Shown one piece after another: positions 2,043-19,648 of a DNA stretch of 64,000 bases. Position 1 is the first letter of the stretch; each line of letters begins with the position of its first letter. The DNA is from Jiangella muralis (GTDB lineage Bacteria; Actinomycetota; Actinomycetes; Jiangellales; Jiangellaceae). The stretch is from positions 1 to 64,000 of the forward strand of contig NZ_LFXL01000040.1 in assembly GCF_001270745.1 (NCBI RefSeq), read 5' to 3'. The notes under the pieces were generated by a model. It saw only the letters and a program-made list of their open reading frames with translations. It searched no databases and had not been told where the DNA came from. Position numbers and translations under genes: made by a program.

Positions 2043-2733
2043 CCAGGTCGAGCGCGATGGCCCCGCCGCCGCCCGCCCGCAACTGCCCGGCGGTGCGCCC
2101 GACGTACGCGCGCAGCGCCCGGGCCAGGTGCGGCTCGTCGAAGTAGTCGAGCTTCGCGACGACGTCGGCGGCGGGCTCGCCGTGGGCCAGCAGCTCGGCC
2201 GCCGTCCGGGCCCGCTCGATCTGCCGGACGGCGCCCCGGGTGAGACCGGTGGACGCGCGGAACCGGCGTTCGACGGTGCGTTCGGAGACCGCCGGGTCGC
2301 CGCCGCGCAGCACTTCGGCGACCAGCGGGTCACGGACGACGATGCCGGCCCGGACCAGCCGCCCGACCAGCGCCTCGGCGTCGTCCGGGCCCGGCGTCTC
2401 CCAGCGGCCGCCGTCGAGGCGGAACGTCCGGTGCGTGGCGTCGGGCAGCAGGATGCCGCCGTCGACGAGGTCGGCCGTGGGCACGGCCCGCAGTGAGGTG
2501 CCCACGGCGAACTCGATGCCGACGAAGGCCGCGCCCGCCGGCACCGGCGCGGTGCTCGTGCGGGTCTCGGGGCCGGTGACGCCCGCGTAGGCGCGGCCGT
2601 CCTGTTCCCAGAACAGCAGGCCCCAGCGCACGCCCGCGACGGAGGTCATCTGCGCGACCTGCCCGCTGGTGCACGTCCACACGGTGTCGACCCACGGCGA
2701 GCCGGACCCGCGGGTCTCGAACCGCAACTCCAC
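2032..2733 (-). CDS. AraC-family transcriptional regulator
   Basis: A 233-residue protein. The C-terminal part carries the double helix-turn-helix of the AraC family ('SERTVERRFRASTGLTRGAVRQIERARTAAELL', then 'DVVAKLDYFDEPHLARALRAYVGRTAGQL', roughly residues 150-220). The N-terminal part resembles the DUF6597-type sensing region of small actinobacterial AraC proteins. It converges on the DHFR-like gene and runs in the same direction as the DUF1772 gene whose stop lies 21 bases upstream of its start. Target genes are unknown. Confidence 0.85.
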   Translation of the reverse strand: MELRFETRGSGSPWVDTVWTCTSGQVAQMTSVAGVRWGLLFWEQDGRAYAGVTGPETRTSTAPVPAGAAFVGIEFAVGTSLRAVPTADLVDGGILLPDATHRTFRLDGGRWETPGPDDAEALVGRLVRAGIVVRDPLVAEVLRGGDPAVSERTVERRFRASTGLTRGAVRQIERARTAAELLAHGEPAADVVAKLDYFDEPHLARALRAYVGRTAGQLRAGGGGAIALDLVSA

Positions 2734-2754
2734 GAACGAAGAATACGTCGCTGG

Positions 2755-3282
2755 TCAGCGCGCCGTCGTGGGCGCCGCCCGCAGCACGAGGGCGCGGGTG
2801 ACGGCGCCGACGGCCGCCACCGACACCAGGCTGCGCACGAGGTTGGCGGCCACCCACGCGCCCTCCACCCGGTCGCGGACGTCGGCGAGTCCGGCGGCGC
2901 TGCCGAGTCCGGCGGCGTCGATCTCCTCGTTCAGGGGGAGGTTCACCGCCGCCGTCACCGCCAGGACGACGGCATAGAGGGCGAGCGTGACGAGGGCCCA
3001 GCGCCGGGCCGCCCGGTCGCCGCTGCGCCGGAGCACGATCGGCGCGAGGATCACCAGGATCAGCGCGACAGTGTAGCTCAGCGGGAACACCGGGTTGTCG
3101 TTGTACCGCTGCAGGGTCGTCACGAACGTGAGGTCGTCGGCGCCGGCCAGGTTCGGCATGACGGCCACGGCGAAGGTGACGTTCAGCCCGGTGACCAGCA
3201 CCAGCGCCAGCAGCGTCGCGCCGAGGACCGTGACGTCCCAGCGGCCGCCGGTCCGGGTGCGTTCCCGCGTGATCTCGCTCAT
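2755..3282 (-). CDS. DUF1772 (anthrone-oxygenase-like) membrane protein
   Basis: I placed the start at ATG 3282 because the upstream frame extension has no coding character; this gives 175 residues. There are four predicted membrane helices: around 'VTVLGATLLALVLVTGLNVTFAVAV', 'PLSYTVALILVILAPIVL', 'WALVTLALYAVVLAVTAAVNL', and 'LVRSLVSVAAVGAVTRALVL'. The 'LPLNEEI' segment between helices three and four is characteristic of DUF1772. The family includes fungal anthrone oxygenases, but most bacterial members have no known substrate. It is divergent from the amidohydrolase gene at 3428. Confidence 0.75.
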   Translation of the reverse strand: MSEITRERTRTGGRWDVTVLGATLLALVLVTGLNVTFAVAVMPNLAGADDLTFVTTLQRYNDNPVFPLSYTVALILVILAPIVLRRSGDRAARRWALVTLALYAVVLAVTAAVNLPLNEEIDAAGLGSAAGLADVRDRVEGAWVAANLVRSLVSVAAVGAVTRALVLRAAPTTAR

Positions 3283-3427
3283 GGCACCACTGTGCGGCAC
3301 GCAGTCTGGCGTCACAATGCCTACAAGTCGCGGTTTCATGCTCGATCGTCCAGCCACCTGATTTCGCCAGGCCGGGCACCGGGTCCGGCCTAGAGTGGCA
3401 ACGCCGGGCGACACATAGGGGGAGACC

Positions 3428-4711
3428 ATGGCCGACCTGAACGCGCTGCTCGTCACGGACGTCGTCGTGTTCGACAGCGCGGCCGGGCGGCTCACCGCGC
3501 CGATGGACGTCACGGTGCGCGACGGCGTCATCGCCCGGGTCGCGCCCGCCGGGGCGCCACGTGACGACCTCCCGGCGATCGACGGGTCCGGCCGCACGCT
3601 GCTGCCCGGCCTCATCGACGCGCACTGGCACGCGGCGTTCGCGACCATCCCGATGCAGGCCGCGCTGACCGCGGACCTCGGCTACCTGTACGCGCACGCC
3701 GTCGCCGCCGCCCGGCGGACCCTGATGCGCGGGTTCACGACGGTGCGCGACGTCGGCGGGCCCGCGTTCGGCCTCAAACGGGCCATCGACGAAGGCGTCG
3801 TGTCCGGGCCGCGCATCCTCCCGTCGGGCGCGTTCATCTCGCAGACCGCGGGGCACGGCGACTTCCGGCTGCCGTACGAGGTGCCGCGCGGCGTGGCGGG
3901 GCACCTCAGCCACGGCGAGCTCATGGGCGCGGGCGCGATCGCCGACGGCCCGGCCGAGGTGCTGCGCGCGGTGCGCGAGCAGCTGCGCCACGGCGCGACC
4001 CAGATCAAGCTCATGGCCGGCGGCGGCGTCACCTCCAGTTACGACCCGATCGACGTGGCGCAGTACACCGCGGCCGAGCTGCGCGCCGCGGTCGAGGCGG
4101 CCGGCGACTGGGGCACCTACGTCACCGTGCACGCGTACACGCCCAAGGCCGTGCGCACCGCCATCGAGGCCGGGGTGGCCTGCATCGAGCACGGGCAGCT
4201 GCTCGACGACGCCACCGTCGCGCTCATGGCCGAGCGCGGAGTCTGGTGGTGCCTGCAGCCGTTCCTCGACGACGCCGACCTCAACTCCGTCGCCCCGCCG
4301 AACCAGGCCAAGCTGGAGCGCGTCGTCGCCGGCACCGACACCGCCTTCGCGCTGGCGATCAGGCATGGCGTCAAGGTCGCCTTCGGCACCGACGTCCTGT
4401 TCGACCCGCGCCTCGCCGAGCGGCAGGGCGCGATGCTGGCCAAGCTCACCCGCTGGTACTCGCCCGCCGAGGTCCTGCAGCTGGCCACCATCCGCAACGC
4501 CGAGCTGCTGGCGCTGTCGGGGGAGCGCTACCCGTATCCCGGGCGGCTCGGCGTCGTCGCCGAAGGGGCGCTCGCCGACCTCGTGCTGGTCGACGGCGAC
4601 CCGGTCGCCGACATCTCGCTGGTCGGCCGCCCCGACGACGCGTTCGTCGCGATCGTCAAGGACGGCCGGGTCGTCAAGGGCGCCGAGCTGGTCCGGACGG
4701 AGCCTGGCTGA
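3428..4711 (+). CDS. Metal-dependent amidohydrolase (imidazolonepropionase/prolidase-like)
   Basis: A 427-residue enzyme with a strong AGGGGGAG ribosome site before ATG 3428. It shows the whole amidohydrolase-superfamily series: the first metal motif LIDAHWH, 'IKLMAGGG' with the bridging lysine, VHAYT, IEHGQ and the catalytic aspartate in FGTDVLF, followed by the C-terminal 'EGALADLVLVDGDP' beta-sandwich signature. This arrangement is that of the Xaa-Pro-dipeptidase/aryl-amidase-like subgroup, which hydrolyses peptides, lactams or carbamates. No signal peptide is seen, so it acts in the cytoplasm. The substrate cannot be read from the sequence. Confidence 0.88.
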   Translation: MADLNALLVTDVVVFDSAAGRLTAPMDVTVRDGVIARVAPAGAPRDDLPAIDGSGRTLLPGLIDAHWHAAFATIPMQAALTADLGYLYAHAVAAARRTLMRGFTTVRDVGGPAFGLKRAIDEGVVSGPRILPSGAFISQTAGHGDFRLPYEVPRGVAGHLSHGELMGAGAIADGPAEVLRAVREQLRHGATQIKLMAGGGVTSSYDPIDVAQYTAAELRAAVEAAGDWGTYVTVHAYTPKAVRTAIEAGVACIEHGQLLDDATVALMAERGVWWCLQPFLDDADLNSVAPPNQAKLERVVAGTDTAFALAIRHGVKVAFGTDVLFDPRLAERQGAMLAKLTRWYSPAEVLQLATIRNAELLALSGERYPYPGRLGVVAEGALADLVLVDGDPVADISLVGRPDDAFVAIVKDGRVVKGAELVRTEPG

Positions 4712-7110: not shown

Positions 7111-8055
7111 ATGGAACCAGCGGTGGTCGCCGAAGGGCTGACCAAGAATTTCGGGAGCACCCGCGCGCTCGACGGGTTCGACCTGACGGTGCCCGCGGGG
7201 ACGGTCTGCGGGCTGCTCGGACCCAACGGCGCCGGCAAGTCCACGGCCGTGCGCATCCTGTCCACGCTGTCGCGCCCGGACGGCGGCCGGGCGCGGGTGG
7301 CCGGGTTCGACGTCGTCCGCGATCCGGTCGAGGTGCGCTACCGCATCGGCCTGGTCGGCCAGCAACCGGCCGTCGACGAGATGCTGACCGGCCGCGAGAA
7401 CCTGGAGATGTTCGCCCGGCTCTACCGGCTCGGCCCGGCGGAGGCGCGGCGCCGGGCGGCCGAGCTGCTGGAGATCTTCGACCTCGGCGACGCCGCCGAC
7501 CGCCGGCCCAAGGGCTACTCCGGCGGCATGCGGCGCCGGCTCGACCTCGCGATCAGCTTCGTCATGGCGCCGCCGGTGCTGTTCCTGGACGAGCCGACCA
7601 CCGGCATGGACCCCGGCCACCGGCTGGGGCTGTGGCACGGCGTCCGGACGCTGGTCGCGCAGGGCACGACGGTGCTGCTCACCACCCACTACCTCGACGA
7701 GGCCGACCAGCTGGCCGACGAGATCACCGTCATCGACCACGGCCGGGCGATCGCCCGCGGCACGCCGGACGAGCTGAAGTCGCGGCTGCGCGGCGACCGC
7801 ATCGACGTGCTGGTCGGCGACGGCGTCGACGTCGGCGCGGTGGGCCGGGTGCTGGCCGGGGTCACCGGCGCCGCGCCCGAGCTGGACCAGCAGGCCGGGC
7901 GGGTCAGCGTCGCGGCGCCGGACCGGGTCGCGGCACTGGCCCGGGTGGCCCGCGCGCTGGACGACGAGGGTGTCGCCGTGCGCGACATCGCCCTGCGCCG
8001 GCCCACGCTCGACGAGGTGTTCGTCCAGTTCACCCAGGAGGAGGATGCGGCATGA
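7111..8055 (+). CDS. ABC exporter ATP-binding protein, DrrA type
   Basis: A 314-residue ATPase with a near-ideal ribosome site. Walker A is GPNGAGKST, the signature is 'YSGGMRRRLDLA', Walker B is 'VLFLDEPTTGMD' and the H-loop is 'LLTTHYLDEAD'. The C-terminal part, with 'RRPTLDEVFVQFT', is the DrrA-type extension that follows the ATPase domain in daunorubicin-resistance exporters. Its stop overlaps the permease start (ATGA). It should dimerise on the membrane and power export of a hydrophobic drug or lipid; the substrate is unknown. The TetR gene next door is the likely regulator. Confidence 0.93.
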   Translation: MEPAVVAEGLTKNFGSTRALDGFDLTVPAGTVCGLLGPNGAGKSTAVRILSTLSRPDGGRARVAGFDVVRDPVEVRYRIGLVGQQPAVDEMLTGRENLEMFARLYRLGPAEARRRAAELLEIFDLGDAADRRPKGYSGGMRRRLDLAISFVMAPPVLFLDEPTTGMDPGHRLGLWHGVRTLVAQGTTVLLTTHYLDEADQLADEITVIDHGRAIARGTPDELKSRLRGDRIDVLVGDGVDVGAVGRVLAGVTGAAPELDQQAGRVSVAAPDRVAALARVARALDDEGVAVRDIALRRPTLDEVFVQFTQEEDAA

Positions 8056-8873: not shown

Positions 8874-9214
8874 CTGACGGGTGCGCCGCCGTAGCCGATC
8901 TCGTTGCCGTCGGGGTCGTGGTAGGTGAACTTGCGGACGCCGTTGCCGTACGTCTCGCGCACCGCCGGCTCGATGCCGCGCGCCGCGATGCCGTCGGCCA
9001 GCGCGTCGAGGTCGTCGACGAAGACGGTGACGTGGGTGTGGCCGGCGTGCTCGGGCGCCTGGTGCACCGCGAGATACCGGTGCTCGGCCAGCTCCCACAC
9101 CACCTCGGTGTCGTGGGCGCGGAACGCGAACGGCGCGCCGAACAGCCTCTCGTACCAGTCGGTCGCCGCCGCGAAGTCGGTGACCGGGATGACGGGGAAG
9201 AGATCCAGAGCCAT
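8870..9214 (-). CDS. VOC-family (glyoxalase/bleomycin-resistance) protein
   Basis: A 114-residue single VOC domain: it starts 'ALDLFPVIPVTDFAAATDWYERLFG', has the mid-domain 'HTHVTVFVDDLDAL' strand and ends 'FTYHDPDGNEIGYGG'. The final aspartate/glutamate pair sits where VOC proteins often place a metal ligand. One domain is half of the usual active unit, so it should dimerise. Such proteins may bind antibiotics or isomerise small metabolites; none can be assigned. It converges on the exporter permease. Confidence 0.85.
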   Translation of the reverse strand: MALDLFPVIPVTDFAAATDWYERLFGAPFAFRAHDTEVVWELAEHRYLAVHQAPEHAGHTHVTVFVDDLDALADGIAARGIEPAVRETYGNGVRKFTYHDPDGNEIGYGGAPVS

Positions 9215-9237
9215 CCGGCGATGGTAACGATCCGGCC

Positions 9238-9279
9238 GGCCGTCCGGCGGCGCGTGCGCACACGCACCGCCGGACGGCC
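9238..9279 (-). terminator. Hairpin after the xylose-type ABC operon
   Basis: Arms GGCCGTCCGGCGG (9238-9250) and its exact complement (9267-9279) enclose a 16-base loop. It begins six bases past the permease stop codon. There is no obvious T tract, as is common for terminators in high-GC actinobacteria. It could also stop the exporter transcript from the other side. Confidence 0.6.
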
Positions 9280-9284
9280 CGGAG

Positions 9285-10538
9285 TCAACCCCGGCCGCTG
9301 CTGGCGCGGGCCCGCCGGGCGATCGCGTCGATCGACACCGCGAGCAGCAGGACCGCCCCGGTGACGATGTAGCGGACCGACGAGTCGACGCCGATGCGGT
9401 TGAGGCCGCTGGTGATCGCCGTCAGCACCAGCACGCCGAGCAGCGCGGAGTAGGCCGAGCCGCGGCCGCCGAACAGGCTGGTGCCGCCGATGACCGCCGC
9501 CGCGATGGCGGTCAGGTTGACGTCGTTGCTGCCGCTGGCCTGCGACACCGACGTCAGCCGGGCGAGGAACATCAGGCCGCCGGTCGCGGCCAGCGCGCCG
9601 GTCAGCGAGAACGCCGAGATGTAGATCCAGTTGACGTTGATGCCGGAGCGGCGGGCCGCCTCGACGTTGCCGCCGACGGCGTACAGGTGCCGGCCCCACG
9701 TCGACTTGCGCAGCACGAGGTCCAGCAGCACGACCAGCCCGACGAAGAACACCACCGCGTAACCCCAGCCGCGGTCGATGTTCAGGTAGTAGGTCAGGAA
9801 GCCCAGCCCGCCGAGCATGATCGCCGACTTCACCAGCACCAGCGTCAGCGACTGTGCCGGCAGCCCGGCCGCTGTCCGGCGCCTGATCCCGATGATGCTG
9901 ACCAGCGCGTACAGCGCCACGATCACCACCACGGCGACGTAGGAGACCGCCGGGCTGAGGAAGTCCTCGCGGGCGAACTGCGCCAGCGGCGACGTGCGCG
10001 GCAGGTTGATGGTGCCCTGGTCGCCCAGCACGAGGTACTGCACGCCGACGAAGCCGAGCAGGCCGGCCAGCGTGATGACGAAGCTCGGCACGCCGATCTT
10101 GGTGAAGATCAGCCCGTACGCGATGCCGATGACCGCACCCGTCCCGGCGCCGGCCAGGATGCCCAGCACCAGCGGCTGGTCGTTCTCGACGACCATCACC
10201 GCGGTGATCGACGCCGCCAGGCCGCTGACCGAGCCGACCGACAGGTCGATCTCGCCGAGCAGCAGCACCATCACGATGCCGACCGCGATGATGCCGTACG
10301 GCACCGCGTTCAGCGTGATGTTGACCAGGTTGCTCGACGACAGGTACGTGACGTCCTGCAGGTAGAAGACCAGGCCGATCACGAACAGCCCGATCACCAC
10401 CGGCAGCAGCCCGAGGTCGCCGTCGCGGATCCGCCGCCGGAACGCGTCCGCGGCGCCGCGCAGCCCGGTGTCCTGGGCCAGCCGCTCGTCGATCAGGTCG
10501 GACCGGGCCGCGGTCTCGTCGGCCTGCGTCCTGCTCAT
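9285..10538 (-). CDS. Sugar ABC importer permease (XylH-like)
   Basis: A 417-residue membrane protein with about ten helices. The segments 'GIVMVLLLGEIDLSVGSVSGLAA', 'TKIGVPSFVITLAGLLGFVGVQYLVLGDQGTINL' and 'AAAVIGGTSLFGGRGSAYSALLGVLVL' are the hallmark blocks of xylose/ribose-type permeases; the first contains the EAA-like contact loop neighbourhood. A cytoplasmic N-terminus of about 60 residues precedes helix one. It is the last gene of the operon ROK-binding protein-ATPase-permease and overlaps the ATPase stop by four bases. The imported sugar is probably a pentose or similar aldose, inferred from the binding protein. Confidence 0.9.
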   Translation of the reverse strand: MSRTQADETAARSDLIDERLAQDTGLRGAADAFRRRIRDGDLGLLPVVIGLFVIGLVFYLQDVTYLSSSNLVNITLNAVPYGIIAVGIVMVLLLGEIDLSVGSVSGLAASITAVMVVENDQPLVLGILAGAGTGAVIGIAYGLIFTKIGVPSFVITLAGLLGFVGVQYLVLGDQGTINLPRTSPLAQFAREDFLSPAVSYVAVVVIVALYALVSIIGIRRRTAAGLPAQSLTLVLVKSAIMLGGLGFLTYYLNIDRGWGYAVVFFVGLVVLLDLVLRKSTWGRHLYAVGGNVEAARRSGINVNWIYISAFSLTGALAATGGLMFLARLTSVSQASGSNDVNLTAIAAAVIGGTSLFGGRGSAYSALLGVLVLTAITSGLNRIGVDSSVRYIVTGAVLLLAVSIDAIARRARASSGRG

Positions 10539-11356
10539 TCCGGCCCTCCTGACGCCTCGCGGCGGGCGTTGCGTTCGGCCACGACGTTGTCCGACGCGCC
10601 GGTGATGGCGGCGACGAGCTGCTCGGTCGTGACGTCGACGGCGCGGAACTCGGCCTCGTTGCGGCCCAGCCGCAGCACGACGATGCGGTCGGCGACGGCC
10701 TGCACGTCGGCCATGTTGTGGCTGATCAGGACCACACCGAGGCGCTGCTCACGCAGTCGCTCGACGAGGTTGAGCACCTCCGCCGTCTGCGCGACGCCCA
10801 GCGCGGCGGTCGGCTCGTCCAGCATGACGACCTTCGGGTTGCCGACCAGGCTGCGGGCGATCGCGACGGTCTGCCGCTGGCCGCCGGAGAGGCTGGCCAC
10901 CGGGATGCGCACCGTCGGGATCTTCGCGCCCAGCTCGCGCAGCAGCCGCCAGGACTCCTTCTCCATCACGACCTCGTCCATCCACGCCTTCGTCCCCAGC
11001 TCGCTGCCGAGGAACAGGTTCGCGACGACGTCGAGGTTGTCGCAGAGCGCGAGGTCCTGGAAGACCGTCGCGATGCCCAGCGACTGGGCGGCGCTCGGGC
11101 TGTGGACGTGCACCTCGCGGCCGTCGACCCGCATCGAGCCGGAGTCGGCCTGGTACACACCGGACATGATCTTGACGAGGGTCGACTTGCCCGCGCCGTT
11201 GTCGCCGACCAGGGCGACCACCTCGCCGGCGTGGACGTGGAAGTCGGCCCCGGCCAGCGCCTGCACGGCGCCGAAGTGCTTGCCGATCCCGATGAGCTCC
11301 AGGATCGGCCCGGTTGTGGCGGCGGACGCACCGCTCTCGTGTGTGGCGACGCTCAT
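10535..11356 (-). CDS. Sugar ABC importer ATPase, single ABC domain
   Basis: I prefer ATG 11356 to ATG 11365, because the GAGGAG ribosome site lies directly against the latter and nine bases from the former; this gives 273 residues. Walker A GDNGAGKST, signature 'LSGGQRQTVAIARSL', Walker B 'VVMLDEPTAAL' and 'VLISHNMADV' are intact. Xylose- and ribose-type ATPases usually carry two ABC domains in about 500 residues; this one has a single domain and must work as a homodimer. It lies between the binding protein and the permease. Confidence 0.9.
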   Translation of the reverse strand: MSVATHESGASAATTGPILELIGIGKHFGAVQALAGADFHVHAGEVVALVGDNGAGKSTLVKIMSGVYQADSGSMRVDGREVHVHSPSAAQSLGIATVFQDLALCDNLDVVANLFLGSELGTKAWMDEVVMEKESWRLLRELGAKIPTVRIPVASLSGGQRQTVAIARSLVGNPKVVMLDEPTAALGVAQTAEVLNLVERLREQRLGVVLISHNMADVQAVADRIVVLRLGRNEAEFRAVDVTTEQLVAAITGASDNVVAERNARREASGGPE

Positions 11357-11377
11357 CGGCACCATCTCCTCATGTCA

Positions 11378-11424: not shown

Positions 11425-12525
11425 TCAGCTGAGACCGGCCGCTGTGCAGGCATCCGCGTAGTCGTCGGTGCAGATGTCGGCGACGGTCCAGAAGTCGTCG
11501 GCCACGACGGTGTCGGCGACGTTGTCGACGGTCACCACGATCGGGTCGAGGATCAGCGACGGCACGCCCTGGAAGTCGGTGGTGTCGGCGACGTCCTCGC
11601 CGTTGACGATCGAGATGGCCATCTCGGCCGCGCCCTCGGCCTCGCCCTTGATCGGCTTGTAGATCGTCATGTACTGCTCACCAGCGACGATGCGCTGGAT
11701 GGCGGCCAGCTCGGCGTCCTGCCCGGTGACCGGCGGCAGCTGGTCGGCCGGCAGTCCGGCGCCGGTGAGCGCCGCGATGACGCCGCCGGCTTGGCCGTCG
11801 TTGGCGGCGTAGACACCGGCCAGCGACGTGGGATCGATGGTGTCCAGCTGGTCCGTCGTCCACGCCTGCGCGTTGTCCGGGCTCCAGTCCGGGTTGTCGT
11901 ACTCGCCGAGGATGGCGAGGTCGCTGGCGTCGATGACGCTGTGCGCGCCGGCCTTGAACTGGGCCGCGTTCGGGTCGTCGGGCGAGCCGTTCAGCATGAG
12001 GACGTCGCCCGGGCCGCCGACCGCGTCGACCAGCGCCTGACCCTGCAGTTCGCCGACCTTCTCGTTGTCGAACGAGGTGTAGTAGTCGGCGCCCTCGATG
12101 AAGCGGTCGTAGGCGATGACCGGGATCTCGGCGGCCTGGGCGTCGGCGACCAGCGACGCCGCGGAGGCGCCGTTGACCGGGTCCAGCACCATGACGTCGA
12201 CGTTCTGCGAGATGGCGGTGTCGACCTGCTCGGCCTGCTTGGTCTCGTCCTGGTCGGCGTTGAAGTAGTTGATCGTGCAGTCGGGACACAGGTCCGCGAC
12301 CTTGGCCTCGAACAGTGGGCGGTCGAACGCCTCGTAGCGGGCGGTCGCCGACTCCGGCAGAAGCAGGGCGATGGTGGCGGCGCTGCCGCTACCGGTGCTG
12401 TCGCCGCTCGCGGTCCCCCCGCCGCCGTCGTCGCTGTTGTCTTCGTTGGCGCCGCAGGCGGCCAGTGCGCCGGCGGCCAGGGCGAGGACTGCGAAGACGG
12501 CAGCCCGTCGATTGGGCTGGTGCAC
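11425..12525 (-). CDS. Sugar-binding lipoprotein of ABC importer (XylF-like)
   Basis: A 366-residue protein. The GTG at 12525 is chosen because AAGGAGG lies seven to eight bases upstream and a lipoprotein signal follows at once (lipobox ALAAC, lipidated Cys24, then an acidic/glycine linker). The mature part is a type I periplasmic-binding fold: 'IALLLPESATARYEAFDRPLF', 'DVMVLDPVNGASAASLV', 'AYDRFIEGADYYTSFDNEKVG', 'GVYAANDGQAGGVIAAL' and 'PPVTGQDAELAAIQRIVAGEQYMTIYKP'. These are close to XylF/ChvE-type xylose or aldose binding proteins. It is anchored on the outer face of the membrane and hands sugar to the permease at 9285. Confidence 0.9.
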   Translation of the reverse strand: MHQPNRRAAVFAVLALAAGALAACGANEDNSDDGGGGTASGDSTGSGSAATIALLLPESATARYEAFDRPLFEAKVADLCPDCTINYFNADQDETKQAEQVDTAISQNVDVMVLDPVNGASAASLVADAQAAEIPVIAYDRFIEGADYYTSFDNEKVGELQGQALVDAVGGPGDVLMLNGSPDDPNAAQFKAGAHSVIDASDLAILGEYDNPDWSPDNAQAWTTDQLDTIDPTSLAGVYAANDGQAGGVIAALTGAGLPADQLPPVTGQDAELAAIQRIVAGEQYMTIYKPIKGEAEGAAEMAISIVNGEDVADTTDFQGVPSLILDPIVVTVDNVADTVVADDFWTVADICTDDYADACTAAGLS

Positions 12526-12623
12526 AGTGAAACCCTCCTTTGGGTTCTGCCCCCGCCGACAGCTCGGCCGGGTGAGGTCGAGTGTGGAACGCCGGTAGGT
12601 TGCCGTCAAGGCTCAAATACATT

Positions 12624-12648
12624 ACGCGTTTACATCTTGTTTATGCGT
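12624..12648. promoter_or_regulatory. AT-rich candidate operator upstream of the binding-protein gene
   Basis: The block at 12609-12675 is distinctly AT-rich. Within it ACGCGTTTACA (12624-12634) faces an imperfect inverted copy ending TTATGCGT at 12648; on the minus strand this reads as two TAAACA/TGTAAACG-like half-sites. ROK/XylR-type regulators often use AT-rich palindromes of this type. The ROK gene lies directly upstream. The match is imperfect, so this is a suggestion. Confidence 0.35.
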
Positions 12649-12672
12649 TCGTATTTCGATAGCAATGCGGTG

Positions 12673-13830
12673 TTATTCACCGGCGGAGAGGGACGCGACC
12701 AGCGCGCCCACCGCCTCCGTGCCCTCGCCGAGCGGCGAGATCGAGATGCGGGTCCGCTCCGCCACGCCGGGCAGCACCGCCCGCCGGAAGCCCTGGCGGA
12801 CCGGGCCGAGCCAGGCGTCGCCGGCGGCGAGGAGGGGACCGCCGAGGGCGATGTCGGCGGGGTTGAGGATCATCGCGAGCCAGCCGAGGCCGCGACCGAG
12901 CAGCTCGCCGGCGTCCTCGAGCACGTGCACCGCCACCGGGTGACCGTCGCCGATGAGGCCGAGCACCTCCGGCAGGGCGAGATCGCGCCGCAACGCCGAG
13001 CTGAGCGCCGTCCGCACCGACTCCGCGGACCCCACGGTCTCGAGGCAGCCGCGCCGCCCGCAGCGGCACACCACCGACAGCGCGGGGTCGAGCGCGAGGT
13101 GGCCGATCTCGCCGGCCGCGCCGGAGTCGCCCCGCAGCAGCTCGCCGCCGACAGCGACGCCGGCGCCGATGCCGGAGCCGACCTTGACGAACACCACCGA
13201 CCGGCCGGCACCCGCGCGGCGGGCCAGCGCGAGCGCGCCGAGGTTCGCGTCGTTCTCGACCACGACCGGCCGGCCGAGCAGCCGCGCCACCTCGTCACGC
13301 AGCGGGAACCCGACCAGGGCGGGCAGGATCGCGGTCTCGGTGACGACGCCGGTCGCGGTGTCGATGGGCGCGGGGACCCCGACGGCGACGCCGGCGATCT
13401 GGGCGGTGGTGAGCCCGGCCTCCTGGCGCACCGATGCCGCGAGGGCGCCGATCACCTCGAGCACGGTGTCCGGGCGCAGCCCGCCGTCGAGGACGACGGC
13501 CGACTCGGCCAGCACCTCGCCGGGCGCGGCGCCGGCGACCACCTTGACGTGCGTGCGCCCGAGGTCGACGCCGATGCCGTAGCGCTGCCGCACCGGTGCC
13601 CGCTCGACCAGGCGGCTGCGCCGGCCGTTCGCCACGCCCTGCCGCACGACCAGCTCGCCGTCGTCGACGAGCGTGCGGACCAGCCCGGAGATGGTGGCCG
13701 GGGCGAGGCCGGTCAGCCGCGCCAGCTCCGCCTGGCTGACCGCCTGCCCGGCCGGCAGCGCGCCCAGCAGCCGGCGCCGGTTGGCCAGCCGCAGCGACGA
13801 CAGCGACCCGGGCCCGGTGGCGTCAGGCAT
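12673..13830 (-). CDS. ROK-family transcriptional regulator (XylR/NagC type)
   Basis: A 385-residue protein. An N-terminal winged helix ('AVSQAELARLTGLAPATISGLVRTLVDDGELV', residues about 28-62) is followed by a ROK sugar-kinase-like domain: 'GIGVDLGRTHVKVV', 'GVAVGVPAPID', 'VVVENDANLGALA', 'VVFVKVGSGIGAGV', 'GEIGHLAL' and the zinc motif CRCGRRGCLET. All active-site landmarks are present. It is the first gene of the xylose-type operon running leftward and most likely represses it until the sugar is present. The spacing to the next importer upstream is 239 bases. Confidence 0.9.
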   Translation of the reverse strand: MPDATGPGSLSSLRLANRRRLLGALPAGQAVSQAELARLTGLAPATISGLVRTLVDDGELVVRQGVANGRRSRLVERAPVRQRYGIGVDLGRTHVKVVAGAAPGEVLAESAVVLDGGLRPDTVLEVIGALAASVRQEAGLTTAQIAGVAVGVPAPIDTATGVVTETAILPALVGFPLRDEVARLLGRPVVVENDANLGALALARRAGAGRSVVFVKVGSGIGAGVAVGGELLRGDSGAAGEIGHLALDPALSVVCRCGRRGCLETVGSAESVRTALSSALRRDLALPEVLGLIGDGHPVAVHVLEDAGELLGRGLGWLAMILNPADIALGGPLLAAGDAWLGPVRQGFRRAVLPGVAERTRISISPLGEGTEAVGALVASLSAGE

Positions 13831-14069: not shown

Positions 14070-15221
14070 CTAGCGGCCGGGCCGCGAATGCTCACGGAAC
14101 GGGGTCACCTCGGCGCGGTGCGCCAGGGTGTCCAGTCCGACGGCGACGGCGAGGACGAGGCCGGTCGCGATCAGCCGGATCGGCGACGACGCGCCCATGA
14201 GGTCCAGCCCGTTGGCCAGCGACCCGACGACGAGCGCGCCCAGCAGCGCCGACCACACCGTCCCGCGGCCGCCGAACAGGCTGGTGCCGCCGATCGCCGC
14301 GGCCGCCACCGCGGTCAGCATGAGGTCGGTGCTGCCCGACGACTGGTTGACGGCGAGCAGCCGGGACGCCGCGAGGATGCCGCCGGTGACGGCCAGCACG
14401 GACGCCAGCATGAACACCGCCAGCCGGATGCGGTCCACGGCGATGCCCGCCCTCCGCGCCCCCGACGCGTTGCTCCCGGTCGCCATCGCGTGCCGGCCGA
14501 GCTTCGTGCGCCGGACCATGAGGTCGCCGCCGGCCAGCAGCAGGAGGAACACCACGACGGCGAGCGGCACGCCACGGTCGGCGTTGAACACGACGACCGC
14601 CACCGGTGCGCCGGCGCCCGCGACCACCCACGGCCAGACCCGTCGCGCCGGCCGGTCCCGTTCGCGGCGCAGCGACCCGACGATCGCCACGACCGAGCCC
14701 GCCGTCACCGCCGCGGCCAGCGCCCACCCGGCGGCCGGCGCGAGGAACGTCCCCGCGATGGCCACCAGTTGCGGGTCGTCGATGTTGACCGTCCCGGTGT
14801 CGCCGAGCACCAGCAGCAGCGCGCCCTGCCACGTCAGCAGCCCGGCCAGCGTCACCACGAACGACGGCACGCCGACCCGCGTCACCATGGCGGCGTGCGC
14901 CAGCCCGACCAGCGCGCCGGTCGCCAGCCCGGCGAGGATGGCGAGGACGGCCGGCCAGTCCTGCTTGACGCTGAGCACCGCGGTGACGGCCGCGCCGAAG
15001 CCGGACACCGCGCCGACGGAGAGGTCGATCTCGCCGATCAGCAGCACGAGCACGACGGCCACCGCGACGGCGCCGACGGCGACGATCTGCAGCATGAGGT
15101 TGGTGAGGTTCACCGCGGACAGGAATCGCGGGTTGCTCAGGCTCATCACCAGCCAGATGACGGCGAGCGCGGCCGGCGGCGCCCAGCGGCCGAGCCGGGC
15201 CGGCGACACCGAGCCGTTCAC
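14070..15221 (-). CDS. Sugar ABC importer permease, second (kinase-linked) system
   Basis: A 383-residue membrane protein starting at GTG 15221, overlapping the binding-protein stop by four bases. It shares with the permease at 9285 the blocks 'VLVLLIGEIDLSVGAVSGFGAAV', 'TRVGVPSFVVTLAGLLTWQGALLLVLGDTGTVNI' and 'AAAAIGGTSLFGGRGTVWSALLGALVV', so the two are paralogues. About ten helices are predicted. The only ATPase encoded in its operon is the ABC domain fused to the histidine kinase at 17006-19393. If that domain energises this permease, import and signalling are physically joined; alternatively the permease borrows the ATPase at 10535. Confidence 0.9.
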   Translation of the reverse strand: MNGSVSPARLGRWAPPAALAVIWLVMSLSNPRFLSAVNLTNLMLQIVAVGAVAVAVVLVLLIGEIDLSVGAVSGFGAAVTAVLSVKQDWPAVLAILAGLATGALVGLAHAAMVTRVGVPSFVVTLAGLLTWQGALLLVLGDTGTVNIDDPQLVAIAGTFLAPAAGWALAAAVTAGSVVAIVGSLRRERDRPARRVWPWVVAGAGAPVAVVVFNADRGVPLAVVVFLLLLAGGDLMVRRTKLGRHAMATGSNASGARRAGIAVDRIRLAVFMLASVLAVTGGILAASRLLAVNQSSGSTDLMLTAVAAAAIGGTSLFGGRGTVWSALLGALVVGSLANGLDLMGASSPIRLIATGLVLAVAVGLDTLAHRAEVTPFREHSRPGR

Positions 15222-16318
15222 GGCGCGCCGTCCCCGGTCAGGCCGGCGGCGGCGCACTCGGCCGCCAGCCCTTCGCAGATCTCGTCCACCGTCCAGAACC
15301 CGTCGGCGACCACGGTGTCGGCGATGGTGTCGCGGGTGACGGCGACCGGCGTCAGCATGAGCGCCGGGACGCGGTCGTGCCCGTTGTCGACCCAGCTGGT
15401 GCGCAGTTCGTCCGGCGGCTCGCCGGTGCGGGCCAGTTCGACGGCGACGTCGGCGGCCGCCCGGGCCTGCGTGCGTACCGCCTTGTAGACGGTCATGTAC
15501 TGCTCGCCGGTGAGGATGCGGCGCACGGCCGCCAGCTCGGCGTCCTGCCCGGTGACCGGCGGCAGCGGGTCGAGCCCGGCCGCCTTCATCGCGGCGATGG
15601 CGCCGCCGGCCATGCCGTCGTTGGCCGCGTAGACGCCGGCGACGCGGTCGCGGCCGAGCGTCGTCAGGGCCCGCTCCATCGCCTCCTGCGCCTGGTCGGG
15701 CGACCAGTCGGGCACGTCGACCTCGGTGCCGACGGCGACCCCGGCGGCGTCGAGGACGCTGTGCGCGCCGCGCCGGAACAGCGCTGAGTTGTCGTCGGTG
15801 GGTGAGCCGTTCAGCACCACCAGCTCGCCGTCGGTCGCGCGGACGGCGGCCAGCAGCACCTCGGCCTGCAACCGGCCGACCTGCTCGTTGTCGAACGTGA
15901 CGTGGAAGTCGACTGGGGCGTCGAGCACCAGCCGGTCGTAGCTGACCACCGGGACGCCGGCCGCGTGTGCCTGGCGGACGATGACCGACGCCGACCGGGA
16001 GTCGACGGGGTCGAGGACCAGCACGTCGGCGCCGTTGGTGAGCGCCGCCTCGGCCTGCGCCTGCTGGTGCGCGGCATCCTGGTCGGCGTTGCTGACCAGC
16101 GTCTCGCACTCGGCGCAGATCTCGTGCACCCGGTCGACGAAGGCCGGGCGGTCGTGCGACTCGTACCGTGCGGTCTTGTTCTCCGGCAGCAGCAGCGCGA
16201 TCTGCAGCTCGCCGTCGTCGCCGGCCCCGGACGTGCCGGCCGCGCCGCAGGCCGCGGCGCCCAGCGCCAGGGCGAGCACCGCGGGCAGGGCGGCGGCGAG
16301 CAGGCGTCGGCGGCCCAT
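15218..16318 (-). CDS. Sugar-binding lipoprotein, second (kinase-linked) system
   Basis: A 366-residue protein; ATG 16318 shares one base with the response-regulator stop. The signal has a lipobox with lipidated Cys24 (GAAAC). The mature domain is clearly paralogous to the binding protein at 11425: 'QIALLLPENKTARYESHDRPAFVD', 'DVLVLDPVDSRSASVIV', 'SYDRLVLDAPVDFHVTFDNEQVG', 'GVYAANDGMAGGAIAAM', 'PPVTGQDAELAAVRRILTGEQYMTVYKAV'. The ligand is therefore probably a related aldose. In this operon it may act both as transport receptor and as the extracellular sensor of the two-component system, because the kinase has no membrane segment or extracellular domain of its own. Confidence 0.9.
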   Translation of the reverse strand: MGRRRLLAAALPAVLALALGAAACGAAGTSGAGDDGELQIALLLPENKTARYESHDRPAFVDRVHEICAECETLVSNADQDAAHQQAQAEAALTNGADVLVLDPVDSRSASVIVRQAHAAGVPVVSYDRLVLDAPVDFHVTFDNEQVGRLQAEVLLAAVRATDGELVVLNGSPTDDNSALFRRGAHSVLDAAGVAVGTEVDVPDWSPDQAQEAMERALTTLGRDRVAGVYAANDGMAGGAIAAMKAAGLDPLPPVTGQDAELAAVRRILTGEQYMTVYKAVRTQARAAADVAVELARTGEPPDELRTSWVDNGHDRVPALMLTPVAVTRDTIADTVVADGFWTVDEICEGLAAECAAAGLTGDGAP

Positions 16319-17013
16319 CAGCCGTCCGTCGTGAACCGGTAGCCGGCCCGCGGCTCGGTGACGATCAGCTCGGCGCCGCCGGGCCCCTCCAGCTTGGCCC
16401 GCAGCCGCCCGACGTACACGCGGGTGTATTCGGTCTGCGTCTCGTAACCCGGACCCCAGACCCGGCGCAGCAGCTCGGCGTGGGTCAGCAGCCGGCCGGG
16501 GTGCATCGCCAGCTCGCGCAGCAGCGCGTACTCGGTTCGGGTGAGGTGGACCCGCTTGCCGCCCTTCGTGACCAGCTGGGCGTCGAAGTCGATGCGGACG
16601 TCGCCGACCCGGACCTGCGGCGCCACCAGCCGCGGCTCGGCCGGGCGGGCCCGGCGCAGCATCGCGTTGACGCGGGCCAGCAGCTCCTCGATGCCGAACG
16701 GCTTGGTGAGGTAGTCGTCGGCGCCCAGGTTCAGCGCCCGCACCTTGTCGGTCTCGCCGCGCCGCGCCGACAGCACGATGATGCCGACGTCGGAGCGGTC
16801 GCGCACCGCCCAGCACAGGTCGAAGCCGTCGCGGCCGGGCAGCATGAGGTCGAGCAGGACGACGTCGGGCGCCGCCTGCTCGAGCAGCCGCAGCACGTCG
16901 GAGCCGTCCGTCGACACCACCACCCGGTAGCCGCGGGCGGTGAGGTTGGACCGCAGGACGTCGACGATGATGCGGTCGTCCTCGACGATGAGGACGCCGG
17001 GCGCGTCAGCCAT
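16318..17013 (-). CDS. OmpR/KdpE-type response regulator
   Basis: A 231-residue protein with ATG at 17013, overlapping the kinase stop by eight bases. The receiver domain has the acidic pocket (VLIVEDD), phospho-acceptor Asp55 in LLDLMLPG, and conserved Thr/Ser and Lys ('IIVLSAR', DYLTKPFG). The C-terminal winged helix carries 'HLTRTEYALLRELAMHPGRLLTHAELLRRVWG' and 'VYVGRLRAKLE', typical of OmpR/KdpE regulators. It lies between the kinase-ABC fusion and the binding protein and should take phosphate from His581 of the fusion. Its targets may be its own operon or the paralogous xylose-type operon downstream. Confidence 0.95.
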   Translation of the reverse strand: MADAPGVLIVEDDRIIVDVLRSNLTARGYRVVVSTDGSDVLRLLEQAAPDVVLLDLMLPGRDGFDLCWAVRDRSDVGIIVLSARRGETDKVRALNLGADDYLTKPFGIEELLARVNAMLRRARPAEPRLVAPQVRVGDVRIDFDAQLVTKGGKRVHLTRTEYALLRELAMHPGRLLTHAELLRRVWGPGYETQTEYTRVYVGRLRAKLEGPGGAELIVTEPRAGYRFTTDG

Positions 17014-19393
17014 CACTCTCCTCGCCCTCGGCCGGCTCGACCGGCAGCGTGACGCGGAAGCCGGACTCCGGCCCGGTGGCCAGCTCGACCCGCCCGCCGT
17101 GCGCCTCGGCGATGCCGCGGACGATGGCCAGCCCCAGGCCGGCGCCGGTGCTGCCCTCGCCGCGCACCCGCGGCTCGAAGATCCGCTCCGCGACGTCCGG
17201 CGCGATGCCCGGGCCGTCGTCGCTGACCAGCACCTCGACCGACGCGCCATCGTCGACGGCCGCGGCGACGACCCGGACGGCGCCGTCCGGGCCGCCGTGG
17301 CGGACCGCGTTCTCCAGCAGGTTGACGAACACCTGCTCCAGGCGGTCGTGGTCGGCCCAGATCGGCGGGAGGCCCGCCGCGACGCCGATCTTGACCCGGC
17401 CGGGGTGCGGCACGCAGCTGCGCGCCGCCTCGAGCACCAGCCGCACGTCCGTCCAGTCGGGACGCAGCCGGAGCAGCCCGGACTCGATGGCGGAGGAGTC
17501 GAGGAGGTCGCCGACCAGGCGCTCCATGCGGGCCGACTCGGTGGTGATGGCGGCGAGGAACCGCTCGATCGACTCGGGATCCCAGACGAGGTCGGGCTGC
17601 TGCAGCGTGGAGGCGTAGCCGTGGATCGCGGTCAGCGGCGTGCGCAGCTCGTGGCTGAGGTGCTGCAGCACCTCGCGCTGCAGCTGCTGCGACCGGCGGG
17701 CGGCGGCCGCCTCGCGGCGGGCCCGTTCGAGCATCTCCCGCTCCAGCGCCAGCGCGAGCGACCGGCGGGCGTCGTCGAGCAGCTCGACGGCGTCGCGGCC
17801 GGGCTCCGCGGGATCGTCCCAGCGGGCCAGCAGCAGCCCGGTGCCGCCGGGGATCGGCAGCCCCGCGAGCGCCAGGCCGTCGCCGATGCGCCGCGGCCGG
17901 TCGGTGCCGGCGGGCGCGGCCTCGGCCAGCTCTCGTAGCCCGGCGTCGGCTGAACCGTCGATGTCGATGTGCACCCAGCGCGGCTCGCCCCCGGTGAGCT
18001 CGGTGACGTCGGTGAGCAGCATGCCCGCCGCCCGGGCGCCGAGGCCGCGGCAGAGCGCGAGCAGCGCGGCGGACAGGCCGCCGTCGACGCGGTCGGGCCC
18101 GGCCAGCGTCTCGAGCATGGCCCGTAGCGACTCGAGGATCTCGTTGCGGCGGCTCACCTCCTCGATCAGCCGCTCGCGCTCGATGGCGCTGGCGGCATGG
18201 CCGGCGTACAGCGAGACCAGCTCGCGGCGGTCGGCGTCGAGGCGGCCGGCGGACGTGCTGAAGCCGGTGATGGTGCCGAGGACGCCGGCCGAGCCGACGA
18301 TCGGAGCGGACCACGCGCTGCGCACGCCCGCCGCGGCGGCCCGCTCCAGGTACCCCGTCCAGGTCGTGTCGTCGCTGGCGTCGTCGACGACCACCAGCTG
18401 CCCGAGCGCCGCGGCCGTGCCGACCAGCCCGCCGGCCGAGCCGACCGGGACCAGCGCGGCGTCGTCGGCCAGCGCCGGCGGCAGCCCGATGGCGGCGGTG
18501 CGGCGCAGCAGCGGCCCGCGCGGCGCGTGGTCGAGCAGGTGCACGCAGAGCATGTCCTGGTCGAGAGCGGCGGCCGTGGCCGAGACGACGAGCGGCAGCG
18601 ACGCGGCGGGGTCGGCGGCGGAGAGCTGCTCGACCAGGCTCTTGAGCCGGTTCAGCTGCCGCCGCGCCGCCGACTCGGTCTCGATGCCCGACATCAGCGC
18701 CGCGACGTCGTCGGAGTGCACCTCGGCCGGTGACACCCCGGCGACGATGCGGCCGTGGCGCAGCACGACGATGCGGTCGGCCAGCGCGAACACCTCGTCG
18801 AGGTCGTGGCTGACCAGCACGATCGCCCGGCCGTCGTCGCGCAGGTCGCTCAGCACGCGCATGATCTCGGCGCGCCGCAGCACGCTCAGCGAGGCGGTCG
18901 GCTCGTCCAGCACCAGCAGGTCGGCGCCGGTGGACAGCGCCCGGGCCAGCGCGACCTCCTGCCGCTGCCCGCGCGAGAGGGTATCGACCCGGGCCCGGAC
19001 GTCGGTGAGCTGCGAGCCGAACCGCTCCAGCGCCCGCCGGGCGTCGGCGGCCATGCGGCCCTCGGACAGCAGCAGCCGGGAGTGCTCGCGGCCGAGGAAG
19101 ACGTTCGCGACGACGTCGAGGTCGTCGCAGAGCCCGAGATCCTGCCAGACGACGGCGACCGGCGCCTTGGCGCCGTCGGCGGCCGCCACCGCCACCTGGC
19201 CCTCGTCGACGTCGGTGTCGCCGGCGATGCAGCGGACCAGTGTCGACTTGCCGGCGCCGTTCTCACCGACGACGGCGACGATCTCGCCGCCGCGCACGCT
19301 CAGCGTGACGCCGTCGAGCGCACGCAGCCGTCCGTAGCGCTTGGTGACGCCGCGCAGCTCGAGGATCGGCGCGGCGCTGCCGCGGTCGGTCAT
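17006..19393 (-). CDS. ABC ATPase fused to GAF and histidine-kinase domains
   Basis: A 795-residue protein. ATG 19393 follows a G-rich ribosome site; a start 12 codons earlier is possible. Residues 9-235 form a sugar-importer ABC domain: Walker A GENGAGKST (43-51), signature LSRGQ (139-143), Walker B LLVLDE (159-164), H-loop His196. Residues about 255-410 look like a GAF domain, then a second, diverged sensor-like region to about 560. A HisKA domain follows with phospho-acceptor His581 (LSHELRTP), and an HATPase domain with N box NLLENAVRHGG (about 691), DDGPGI (725-730) and GAGLGLAIV (about 750). No membrane helix is visible. The ABC domain resembles that of the ATPase at 10535. In the operon it precedes the response regulator, binding protein and permease, with overlaps throughout. 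One ABC domain plus a kinase that dimerises would give a complete ATPase pair. The signature has Arg where LSGGQ has Gly. Confidence 0.92.
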   Translation of the reverse strand: MTDRGSAAPILELRGVTKRYGRLRALDGVTLSVRGGEIVAVVGENGAGKSTLVRCIAGDTDVDEGQVAVAAADGAKAPVAVVWQDLGLCDDLDVVANVFLGREHSRLLLSEGRMAADARRALERFGSQLTDVRARVDTLSRGQRQEVALARALSTGADLLVLDEPTASLSVLRRAEIMRVLSDLRDDGRAIVLVSHDLDEVFALADRIVVLRHGRIVAGVSPAEVHSDDVAALMSGIETESAARRQLNRLKSLVEQLSAADPAASLPLVVSATAAALDQDMLCVHLLDHAPRGPLLRRTAAIGLPPALADDAALVPVGSAGGLVGTAAALGQLVVVDDASDDTTWTGYLERAAAAGVRSAWSAPIVGSAGVLGTITGFSTSAGRLDADRRELVSLYAGHAASAIERERLIEEVSRRNEILESLRAMLETLAGPDRVDGGLSAALLALCRGLGARAAGMLLTDVTELTGGEPRWVHIDIDGSADAGLRELAEAAPAGTDRPRRIGDGLALAGLPIPGGTGLLLARWDDPAEPGRDAVELLDDARRSLALALEREMLERARREAAAARRSQQLQREVLQHLSHELRTPLTAIHGYASTLQQPDLVWDPESIERFLAAITTESARMERLVGDLLDSSAIESGLLRLRPDWTDVRLVLEAARSCVPHPGRVKIGVAAGLPPIWADHDRLEQVFVNLLENAVRHGGPDGAVRVVAAAVDDGASVEVLVSDDGPGIAPDVAERIFEPRVRGEGSTGAGLGLAIVRGIAEAHGGRVELATGPESGFRVTLPVEPAEGEESDG

Positions 19394-19444: not shown

Positions 19445-19648
19445 TCAGCCGTTGTCGTCCTCGTCGTCTTCGTCGTCCTCGGGTGGGACGCCCGGCGACT
19501 CCGAGCCGTACCCGGGTGCGGGCACCGGGTTGCCCGGCGACTCCGAACCGTGCTCCGGCGGTGGTACCGGATTGCCCGGCGATTCCGAGCCCTGTCCGGG
19601 TGTGGTCGTCGGATCGCCCGGCGACTCCGATCCTTCTCGGTGTGCCAT
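19445..19648 (-). CDS. Small acidic repeat protein, unidentified
   Basis: A 67-residue protein with an AAGGGGG ribosome site before ATG 19648. It consists almost entirely of a 14-residue repeat, GSESPGNPVPAPGY and variants, present four times; the underlying DNA repeats every 42 bases (units begin near 19490, 19532, 19574, 19616). It ends in an acidic tail (PPEDDEDDEDDNG). It has no cysteine and no hydrophobic core, so it is almost certainly disordered. The reverse frame is also open, but has no comparable ribosome site. No family recognised. Confidence 0.5.
   Translation of the reverse strand: MAHREGSESPGDPTTTPGQGSESPGNPVPPPEHGSESPGNPVPAPGYGSESPGVPPEDDEDDEDDNG

Follow-up and report, generated by a model that had tools for sequence, protein, structure and literature searches.

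How two-component kinases read the state of ATP-binding cassette (ABC) transporters is an open question, and in the Pst system the link through PhoU is not fully understood. In Escherichia coli, the sugar-transport ATPase MalK controls expression of its own transporter by binding a transcription activator, MalT, and in the XylFII-LytS/YesN system of Clostridia a XylF-like binding protein is coupled to a two-component system by acting directly on a membrane kinase. Pst-type target promoters carry Pho boxes, which are direct repeats, and Bce systems have a BceB/FtsX-type permease and an intramembrane-sensing kinase. In published accounts, the Pst kinase reads the conformation of the ABC transporter (PMC5775613), BceAB-BceRS provides a precedent for flux sensing (PMC6978683), and Ks-Amt5 indicates that a transporter fused to a kinase can turn into a pure sensor (PMC5764959). 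Here we describe an operon from a 64,000-nucleotide stretch of Jiangella muralis DNA (contig NZ_LFXL01000040.1; the whole stretch is called the window, and all gene coordinates are positions in it), in which a sugar-type ABC ATPase domain and a histidine kinase form a single protein, named ABC-HK. On balance, we consider it probable from sequence comparisons that this operon is a self-contained module for sugar uptake and sensing, in which the transporter ATPase domain, docked on the permease, would serve as the sensory input of a soluble histidine kinase. The operon consists of four genes:

17006 to 19393, minus strand: ABC-HK, 795 residues in one open reading frame
16318 to 17013, minus strand: response regulator with a receiver (Asp55) and a winged-helix domain (Pfam Response_reg and Trans_reg_C)
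15218 to 16318, minus strand: XylF-like sugar-binding lipoprotein (Pfam Peripla_BP_4)
14070 to 15221, minus strand: CUT2-type sugar permease (Pfam BPD_transp_2), with a GTG start

Domain searches agreed with a first-pass annotation made from the letters of the sequence, which had described a complete sugar-type ABC domain joined to GAF and HisKA/HATPase domains in one protein. Pfam placed ABC_tran (residues 26–167, 6.7e-27), GAF_2 (268–405, 2.3e-12), HisKA (572–639, 3.1e-16) and HATPase_c (681–784, 6.3e-24) on the same chain, and the Walker A (43–51), signature (LSRGQ, 139–143) and Walker B motifs, His581 and Asn691 were located, together with Asp55 of the regulator. The ABC part spans residues ~9–235 and is followed by a helical linker (242–276), the GAF domain (~266–405), a small alpha/beta domain (~436–524) and a long signalling helix, which leads to HisKA, containing His581, and HATPase_c. 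The four genes overlap by 8 nt (ABC-HK and regulator), 1 nt (regulator and binding protein) and 4 nt (binding protein and permease), within the 1 to 8 bases originally noted.

Nearest relatives place the ABC_tran domain among the CUT2 sugar-type ATPases. Its NCBIfam matches were to the N-terminal halves of AraG (4e-51), YtfR (6e-50) and the xylose type, XylG (8e-48), all below the family cut-offs. The kinase part has the H, N, G1 and G2 boxes and the linked regulator with a receiver Asp that characterize orthodox histidine kinases. In NCBIfam, its core is closest to PnpS/PhoR, the regulator to MtrA/PhoB, the binding protein to xylF (1.2e-73) and the permease to GguB as the nearest model (1.9e-53), each again below cut-off, and no PhoU match was found by Pfam among the four operon proteins. 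A 19-residue hydropathy scan revealed no evident transmembrane sensor region in the window ABC-HK, whose peak value is 1.58 compared with 2.99 in the permease, which bears out the earlier description of the kinase as lacking a membrane segment; among relatives, the kinase maximum reaches 2.11 (L081) and 2.05 (L051). Because ABC-HK has no evident membrane segment, the permease is its likely route to the outside.

The predicted monomer model of ABC-HK (mean predicted local distance difference test score 81; predicted template modelling score, pTM, 0.37) comprises an ABC fold, the linker helix, the GAF domain, the second small alpha/beta domain and a long helix running into the dimerization and histidine phosphotransfer domain. 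Its top Foldseek matches were two bacteriophytochromes and one WalK model, followed chiefly by ABC ATPases. The domain arrangement in the model was not used, given the pTM value. Just upstream of ABC-HK, a small frame (19446–19648, minus strand) encodes a repetitive 67-residue peptide with GSESPGNP-type repeats and an acidic tail; the sequence at this position differs in the other six aligned Jiangella loci.

Recurrence, operon forms and a candidate target promoter

The fusion is rare yet spread over at least three classes of Actinomycetota. Among 22 genomes of the same family, 12 carry it as an open frame, the window's being one of them, and the closest named fusion is that of Jiangella endophytica (92%). 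A scan of named genomes with close peptide patterns, the sole scan that reached beyond Actinomycetota, returned 26 loci, ten of which match both ends of the fusion: four from Jiangella, one from Phytoactinopolyspora, one each from a Nocardioidaceae and a Micropruina metagenome-assembled genome, one from Conexibacter and two from Solirubrobacterales metagenome-assembled genomes. Wider genome samples, which overlap each other, were searched with a profile of the ABC end and linker of ABC-HK (profile A1). It matched 16 of 393 genomes of the class, 12 of them family members, and 4 of 396 genomes of the phylum, including the window's and a newly added one, G101; further matches came from the class of G183 (4/66) and the orders of G487 (2/13) and G569 (1/35). 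Five of 198 genomes matched in the class of G101, where three carry fusions (G101, G854 and G932) and the other two show ATPase and permease matches without a kinase or regulator match. A query with the GAF region matched three of the 396 phylum genomes, again counting the window's own, and none of 588 matched plasmid records covered 80% of the ABC-HK query. Recurrence beside a permease and a binding protein, which the first-pass annotation had named as support for a dedicated system, was seen in Jiangella, Phytoactinopolyspora and two other actinobacterial classes. No description of an ABC ATPase–histidine kinase fusion was found in the open-licence literature. The fusion is real and recurrent, and possibly undescribed so far.

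ABC-HK operons occur in two forms. The five-gene form encodes ABC-HK, a regulator, a binding protein, a separate ATPase and a permease, and is represented by 13 loci (L026–L030, L048, L076, L078–L081 and the later-found L090 and L091), with a deviating gene order in L027. The four-gene form, to which the window belongs, has no separate ATPase and is present in nine Jiangella genomes, three Phytoactinopolyspora-type loci (L025, L049 and L051), G279 (L047) and G424 (L075); L077 ends at a contig end and was left untyped. In a midpoint-rooted tree of 26 ABC-HK rows, the four-gene form makes up one side of a branch (95/93), with L047 and L075 on long branches. This topology is consistent with a single loss of the separate ATPase, and the proposed direction, from five genes to four, follows from the wider taxonomic spread of the five-gene form, the root being placed only at the midpoint. 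When 38 ABC domains were placed in one tree, all 16 fused domains grouped together (100/98), with the separate ATPases outside this clade.

Around the four-gene loci L025, L049 and L047, no separate ATPase matching the query was found within the fetched 13–14 kb. Related sugar ATPases of single-domain size are encoded elsewhere in six of the seven four-gene genomes searched (G000, which is the window's own genome, and G012, G017, G018, G020 and G279), and the seventh, G424, a 64% complete assembly, gave only its own fusion at the same threshold. To judge from these sequences, a separate ATPase from elsewhere could supply the four-gene permease in trans.

Two loci showed further features. By eye, a ~190-bp stretch between the aligned regulator and binding-protein parts of L049 holds a long imperfect inverted repeat (CAGATTAGGACAGAGGATCGCCAGG and its near complement). 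In L080 (G569), the fusion is preceded upstream by a second sugar ATPase and permease (2731–4421), and a frame like an anti-sigma-type ATPase seems, also by eye, to lie in the 1.7-kb gap (8955–10664) that separates regulator and binding protein.

In the five-gene loci, GTTCAC-N5-GTTCAC pairs are located in the gap that follows the regulator gene and precedes the transporter genes. Two pairs 31 bp apart are found in six of eleven loci (32 bp in L027), and one pair in L080 and L028–L030. Among the strong 11-bp direct-repeat matches (≥11 of 12) in these eleven loci, 18 of 22 fall past the conserved end of the regulator gene and ahead of the transporter gene that comes next; the L027 repeats are located in the tail of the regulator frame. 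As L048/L076, L078/L079 and L028–L030 are close relatives, the loci represent about seven independent lineages. The four-copy pattern was then searched in whole assemblies with up to three mismatches, with the reversed pattern as a control. Exactly one match per assembly, in the regulator/transporter gap, was present in seven of eight five-gene genomes: five of the six in the first search, and both G854 (2 mismatches) and G932 (3 mismatches), whose fusions were found after the pattern had been fixed. The pattern was absent from all seven four-gene genomes searched (G000, G005, G017, G018, G020, G279 and G424), from G463, where the operon is cut by a contig end, and from two genomes without the fusion; the reversed pattern had no match in any of the 18 genomes.

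The regulators of the two forms differ in their recognition helix, which contains an Arg (YV/YI-R-RLR) in 13/13 five-gene rows and Ala or Gly at this position in 7/7 four-gene rows (YVGRLR in the window). The single occurrence of the repeats per genome, in the gap, and the recognition-helix Arg suggest that the five-gene regulator probably acts on its own transporter genes through the repeats, and regulator and operator seem to have changed together in the four-gene form. The repeats at the transporter promoter thereby lend support to a dedicated regulatory circuit in the relatives, in line with the dedicated system envisaged at first pass. Footprinting of aligned upstream DNA showed no conserved operator upstream of ABC-HK in Jiangella.

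The fused ABC domain and its possible modes of action

Catalytic motifs were compared in 26 ABC-HK rows, 14 of them counted as four-gene and 11 as five-gene. All 26 retain the Walker A Lys and the Walker B DEP; five have losses in the signature, the Q loop or the H loop. Walker A, the Q-loop Gln, an SxG[QE] signature, DEPT and the H-loop His are all intact in 13 of the 14 four-gene rows, including the window. The remaining one, L075, lacks the Q-loop Gln, the signature Ser and the H-loop His, and the fetched DNA around it contains no separate ATPase match; it may be a natural pseudo-ATPase kinase or a product of the incomplete G424 assembly. Seven of the 11 five-gene rows are intact, the signature or H-loop His being lost in L026 and L028–L030, and the held-out five-gene rows L090 and L091 keep the Q-loop Gln, signature and H-loop His. 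On this sequence evidence, ATPase catalysis by the fused domain is possible in most rows, the window's among them, and is not required in all. A rule that the motifs are intact only where a separate ATPase is missing was rejected, as it fails both for the intact five-gene rows and for L075. Of the 14 separate ATPases compared, 11 come from five-gene operons, one is the additional upstream ATPase of L080, and two belong to the cassettes next to the operons of the window and of L051. Thirteen of them are canonical; the exception, X_L027, belongs to another sub-branch.

Conservation within the fused domain is concentrated in part at residues 81–103 (WQDLxLCDNLDVxxNLFLGRE), which run from the Q loop into the helical subdomain, a region that faces the permease in importers. 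Across 16 of the 26 rows picked as representatives, its mean conservation is 0.77, compared with 0.62 for the whole ABC domain, and it ranks fourth of 200 windows, the best lying around Walker A. It closely resembles its counterpart in the separate ATPases; the residue before the Gln position is Trp in 16/16 fused domains and Phe or Tyr in 14/14 separate ones. In a Pfam scan of ten relatives, ABC_tran, HisKA and HATPase_c were matched in all, and GAF (E 1e-5) in seven, with none in L028, L030 and L081. With GAF unmatched in three of these relatives and the ABC domain present in all ten, the latter appears to be the constant input module of the kinase, with the permease as its likely partner. 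In 7/7 five-gene pairs, divergence is greater in the fused ABC domain than in the separate ATPase encoded alongside it, as expected of a reader beside a motor, and in the close pairs L048/L076 and L028/L029 the fused domain has diverged four to five times more than the permease.

In the module that we propose, the ABC domain of the kinase would dock on the partner permease at its coupling surface, either alongside a separate ATPase or instead of one. The sugar-loaded binding protein would alter the state of the permease, and this in turn the ATP binding and closure of the docked domain. Such a change could reach the HisKA/HATPase core by way of the helical linker and any GAF domain present, and the core would set the phosphorylation of the PhoB-like regulator, and the regulator would control the transporter genes, putatively by binding the repeats where these are present. 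In the five-gene form, the separate ATPase would power transport and the fused domain would act mainly as a reader; in the Jiangella lineage, the ABC domain may have become motor as well as reader, or may borrow an ATPase from elsewhere. The sugar may be a xylose-like pentose or another monosaccharide.

Several observations weigh against this proposal. The contact between kinase and permease is putative, the predicted structure being that of a monomer with an unreliable domain arrangement, and the conservation of segment 81–103 could reflect ancestry. L075 has lost the Q-loop Gln. Evolutionary rates, used as a motor test in 13 pairs, were not decisive: once divergence is scaled to permease or kinase, the other five-gene pairs resemble the four-gene pairs. 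At the promoter level, the four-copy pattern had no match in the five-gene genome G569, no GTTCAC repeats were found before the four-gene operons, window included, and we take the GTTCAC repeat to resemble the actinobacterial PHO box, although, with just one four-copy site per genome, a general phosphate box is less likely.

A different reading, which is possible but which we hold only tentatively, makes the protein a bifunctional motor and kinase: in Jiangella and its relatives, the ABC domain of the kinase would be the only ATPase of the permease, and each transport cycle would move the kinase. The operon contains no separate ATPase, nor does the DNA fetched around L025, L049 and L047, catalytic motifs are preserved in nearly all four-gene rows, and HisKA would provide the dimer that an ABC pair needs. 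Against it stand the defective L075 domain in a locus equally devoid of an operon ATPase (with the caveat of its assembly), the related ATPases elsewhere in six four-gene genomes, in Jiangella even directly downstream, and the intact five-gene rows, which mean that intactness is not special to the four-gene form. The first-pass annotation had noted that, besides the fusion, the operon lacks an ATPase gene, from which it could be inferred that the ABC domain must power the permease. This absence was confirmed for the window; the inference is weakened by the 13 relatives that combine the fusion with a separate ATPase, the fused signature or H-loop His being lost in 4/11. The annotation was right on the object and overreached in taking the missing ATPase as the sign of a motor. 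Slightly more doubtful still is the specific form in which one Jiangella polypeptide would be both importer motor and histidine kinase, ATP-driven closure of its two ABC domains around the permease directly opening or closing the kinase core and thus converting transport turnover into phosphorylation without an intermediate protein.

It is unlikely that the ABC domain is instead a soluble energy or nucleotide sensor, which would bind ATP or ADP without permease contact and tune the kinase to the energy state of the cell, the transporter being a mere regulated target. The universal Walker A Lys and DEP, combined with losses of signature, Q-loop or H-loop residues in five rows, would fit such a sensor, but it leaves unexplained both the conservation of the permease-facing Q-loop segment and the pairing of the fusion with an importer in every readable operon. 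Still less probable is a cytosolic sugar or metabolite sensor based on the GAF domain, with a vestigial ABC domain: GAF is present in the window protein and in most of the scanned relatives, but three of these have no GAF match and all ten have the ABC domain, and a vestigial domain would not be expected to retain Walker motifs. A frameshift or assembly error joining two genes, which the first-pass annotation had raised as a concern, is rejected as next to impossible, given the open fusion in independent assemblies of the family and in named Jiangella, Phytoactinopolyspora, Micropruina and Conexibacter records from several families.

The neighbouring importer and flanking DNA

Directly downstream of the operon, on the same strand, lies a complete second importer with a ROK regulator (13830–9285), all outside the operon proper:

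12673 to 13830, minus strand: ROK-family transcriptional regulator
12628 to 12644, plus strand: GTTTACATCTTGTTTAT, a repeat with an 11-bp period between the ROK gene and the second binding-protein gene
11425 to 12552, minus strand: second XylF-like binding protein
10535 to 11365, minus strand: single-domain sugar-type ATPase, candidate supplier in trans for the four-gene permease
9285 to 10538, minus strand: second permease

The related ATPase gene of this cassette starts ~2.7 kb from the operon, so that the earlier remark on the lack of another ATPase holds for the operon itself and not for its surroundings, nor for the many relatives with a separate operon ATPase. A ~50-bp block holding GTTTACATCTTGTTTAT (within 12552–12673) hardly varies between the window and six more Jiangella loci, which come from five other genomes; L051 has a similar block, with one change in the repeat. 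The block is likely the operator or promoter of the neighbouring cassette, and its repeat may be a candidate operator of the ROK protein or of the operon regulator.

The last 38 bp of the operon's permease gene (14107–14070) are repeated ~150 bp downstream (13955–13918) with 37/38 identical positions, and short GTTCCCAGTCGCGTCCTG-type repeats were noted by eye between the two copies. Beyond the neighbouring cassette, on the opposite strand, lies an ABC ATPase gene of a different kind (7111–8055, plus strand). The eight flanking frames of L026, L028, L048 and L079 gave no pointer to the identity of the sugar; they encode an AMP-binding enzyme, an FG-GAP/ASPIC protein, FtsH, NlpC/P60, a major facilitator superfamily exporter, a GTPase, an integrase and, adjoining the L028 permease, a further Peripla_BP_4 binding protein.

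Comparison with known systems

MalK-MalT involves neither a kinase nor a fusion, and XylFII-LytS/YesN signals through a membrane kinase, whereas ABC-HK has no evident membrane part. Among Pst, Ks-Amt5 and Bce, we know of no case in which ATPase and kinase share one chain. The Pst-PhoU-PhoR/PhoB system resembles the present one in its importer, its kinase without an outside sensor domain, its PhoR/PnpS-type core, its PhoB-like regulator and, for our five-gene form, the direct repeats at the candidate target promoter. It differs in that PstB and PhoR are separate chains linked via PhoU, whereas ABC-HK is one chain, encoded in an operon without PhoU and associated with sugar as cargo. In the Pst system, PstB variants with a predicted locked-open or locked-closed conformation send opposite signals via PhoU and PhoR, without transport (PMC5775613); by analogy, the signal in ABC-HK may be conformation rather than the flux suggested in the first-pass annotation, with occupancy as a further candidate.

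In BceAB-BceRS, too, an ABC transporter does the sensing for a two-component system, which regulates transporter genes (PMC6978683). There, a bacitracin resistance transporter acts on a separate kinase; here, a sugar importer with a BPD_transp_2 permease is paired with a soluble, fused kinase in place of the BceB/FtsX-type permease and intramembrane-sensing kinase. Ks-Amt5 is, as we propose for ABC-HK, a kinase whose sensory part is a transport protein within the same chain; there, the fused part is the membrane channel, which binds ammonium without moving it (PMC5764959), whereas the ABC-HK chain has no integral membrane transporter domain, the cytosolic ATPase being fused and the membrane part separate. 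Compared with these systems, ABC-HK unites ATPase domain and kinase in one soluble chain, kept across actinobacterial classes and, in the five-gene form, accompanied by a candidate target promoter, and sequence comparisons suggest that transporter state may here be read directly into gene control. Its compactness makes ABC domain state and autophosphorylation measurable in the same molecule, and its two operon forms provide a comparison made by nature, in which an ABC domain that may do no more than sense stands beside one that may drive transport as well.

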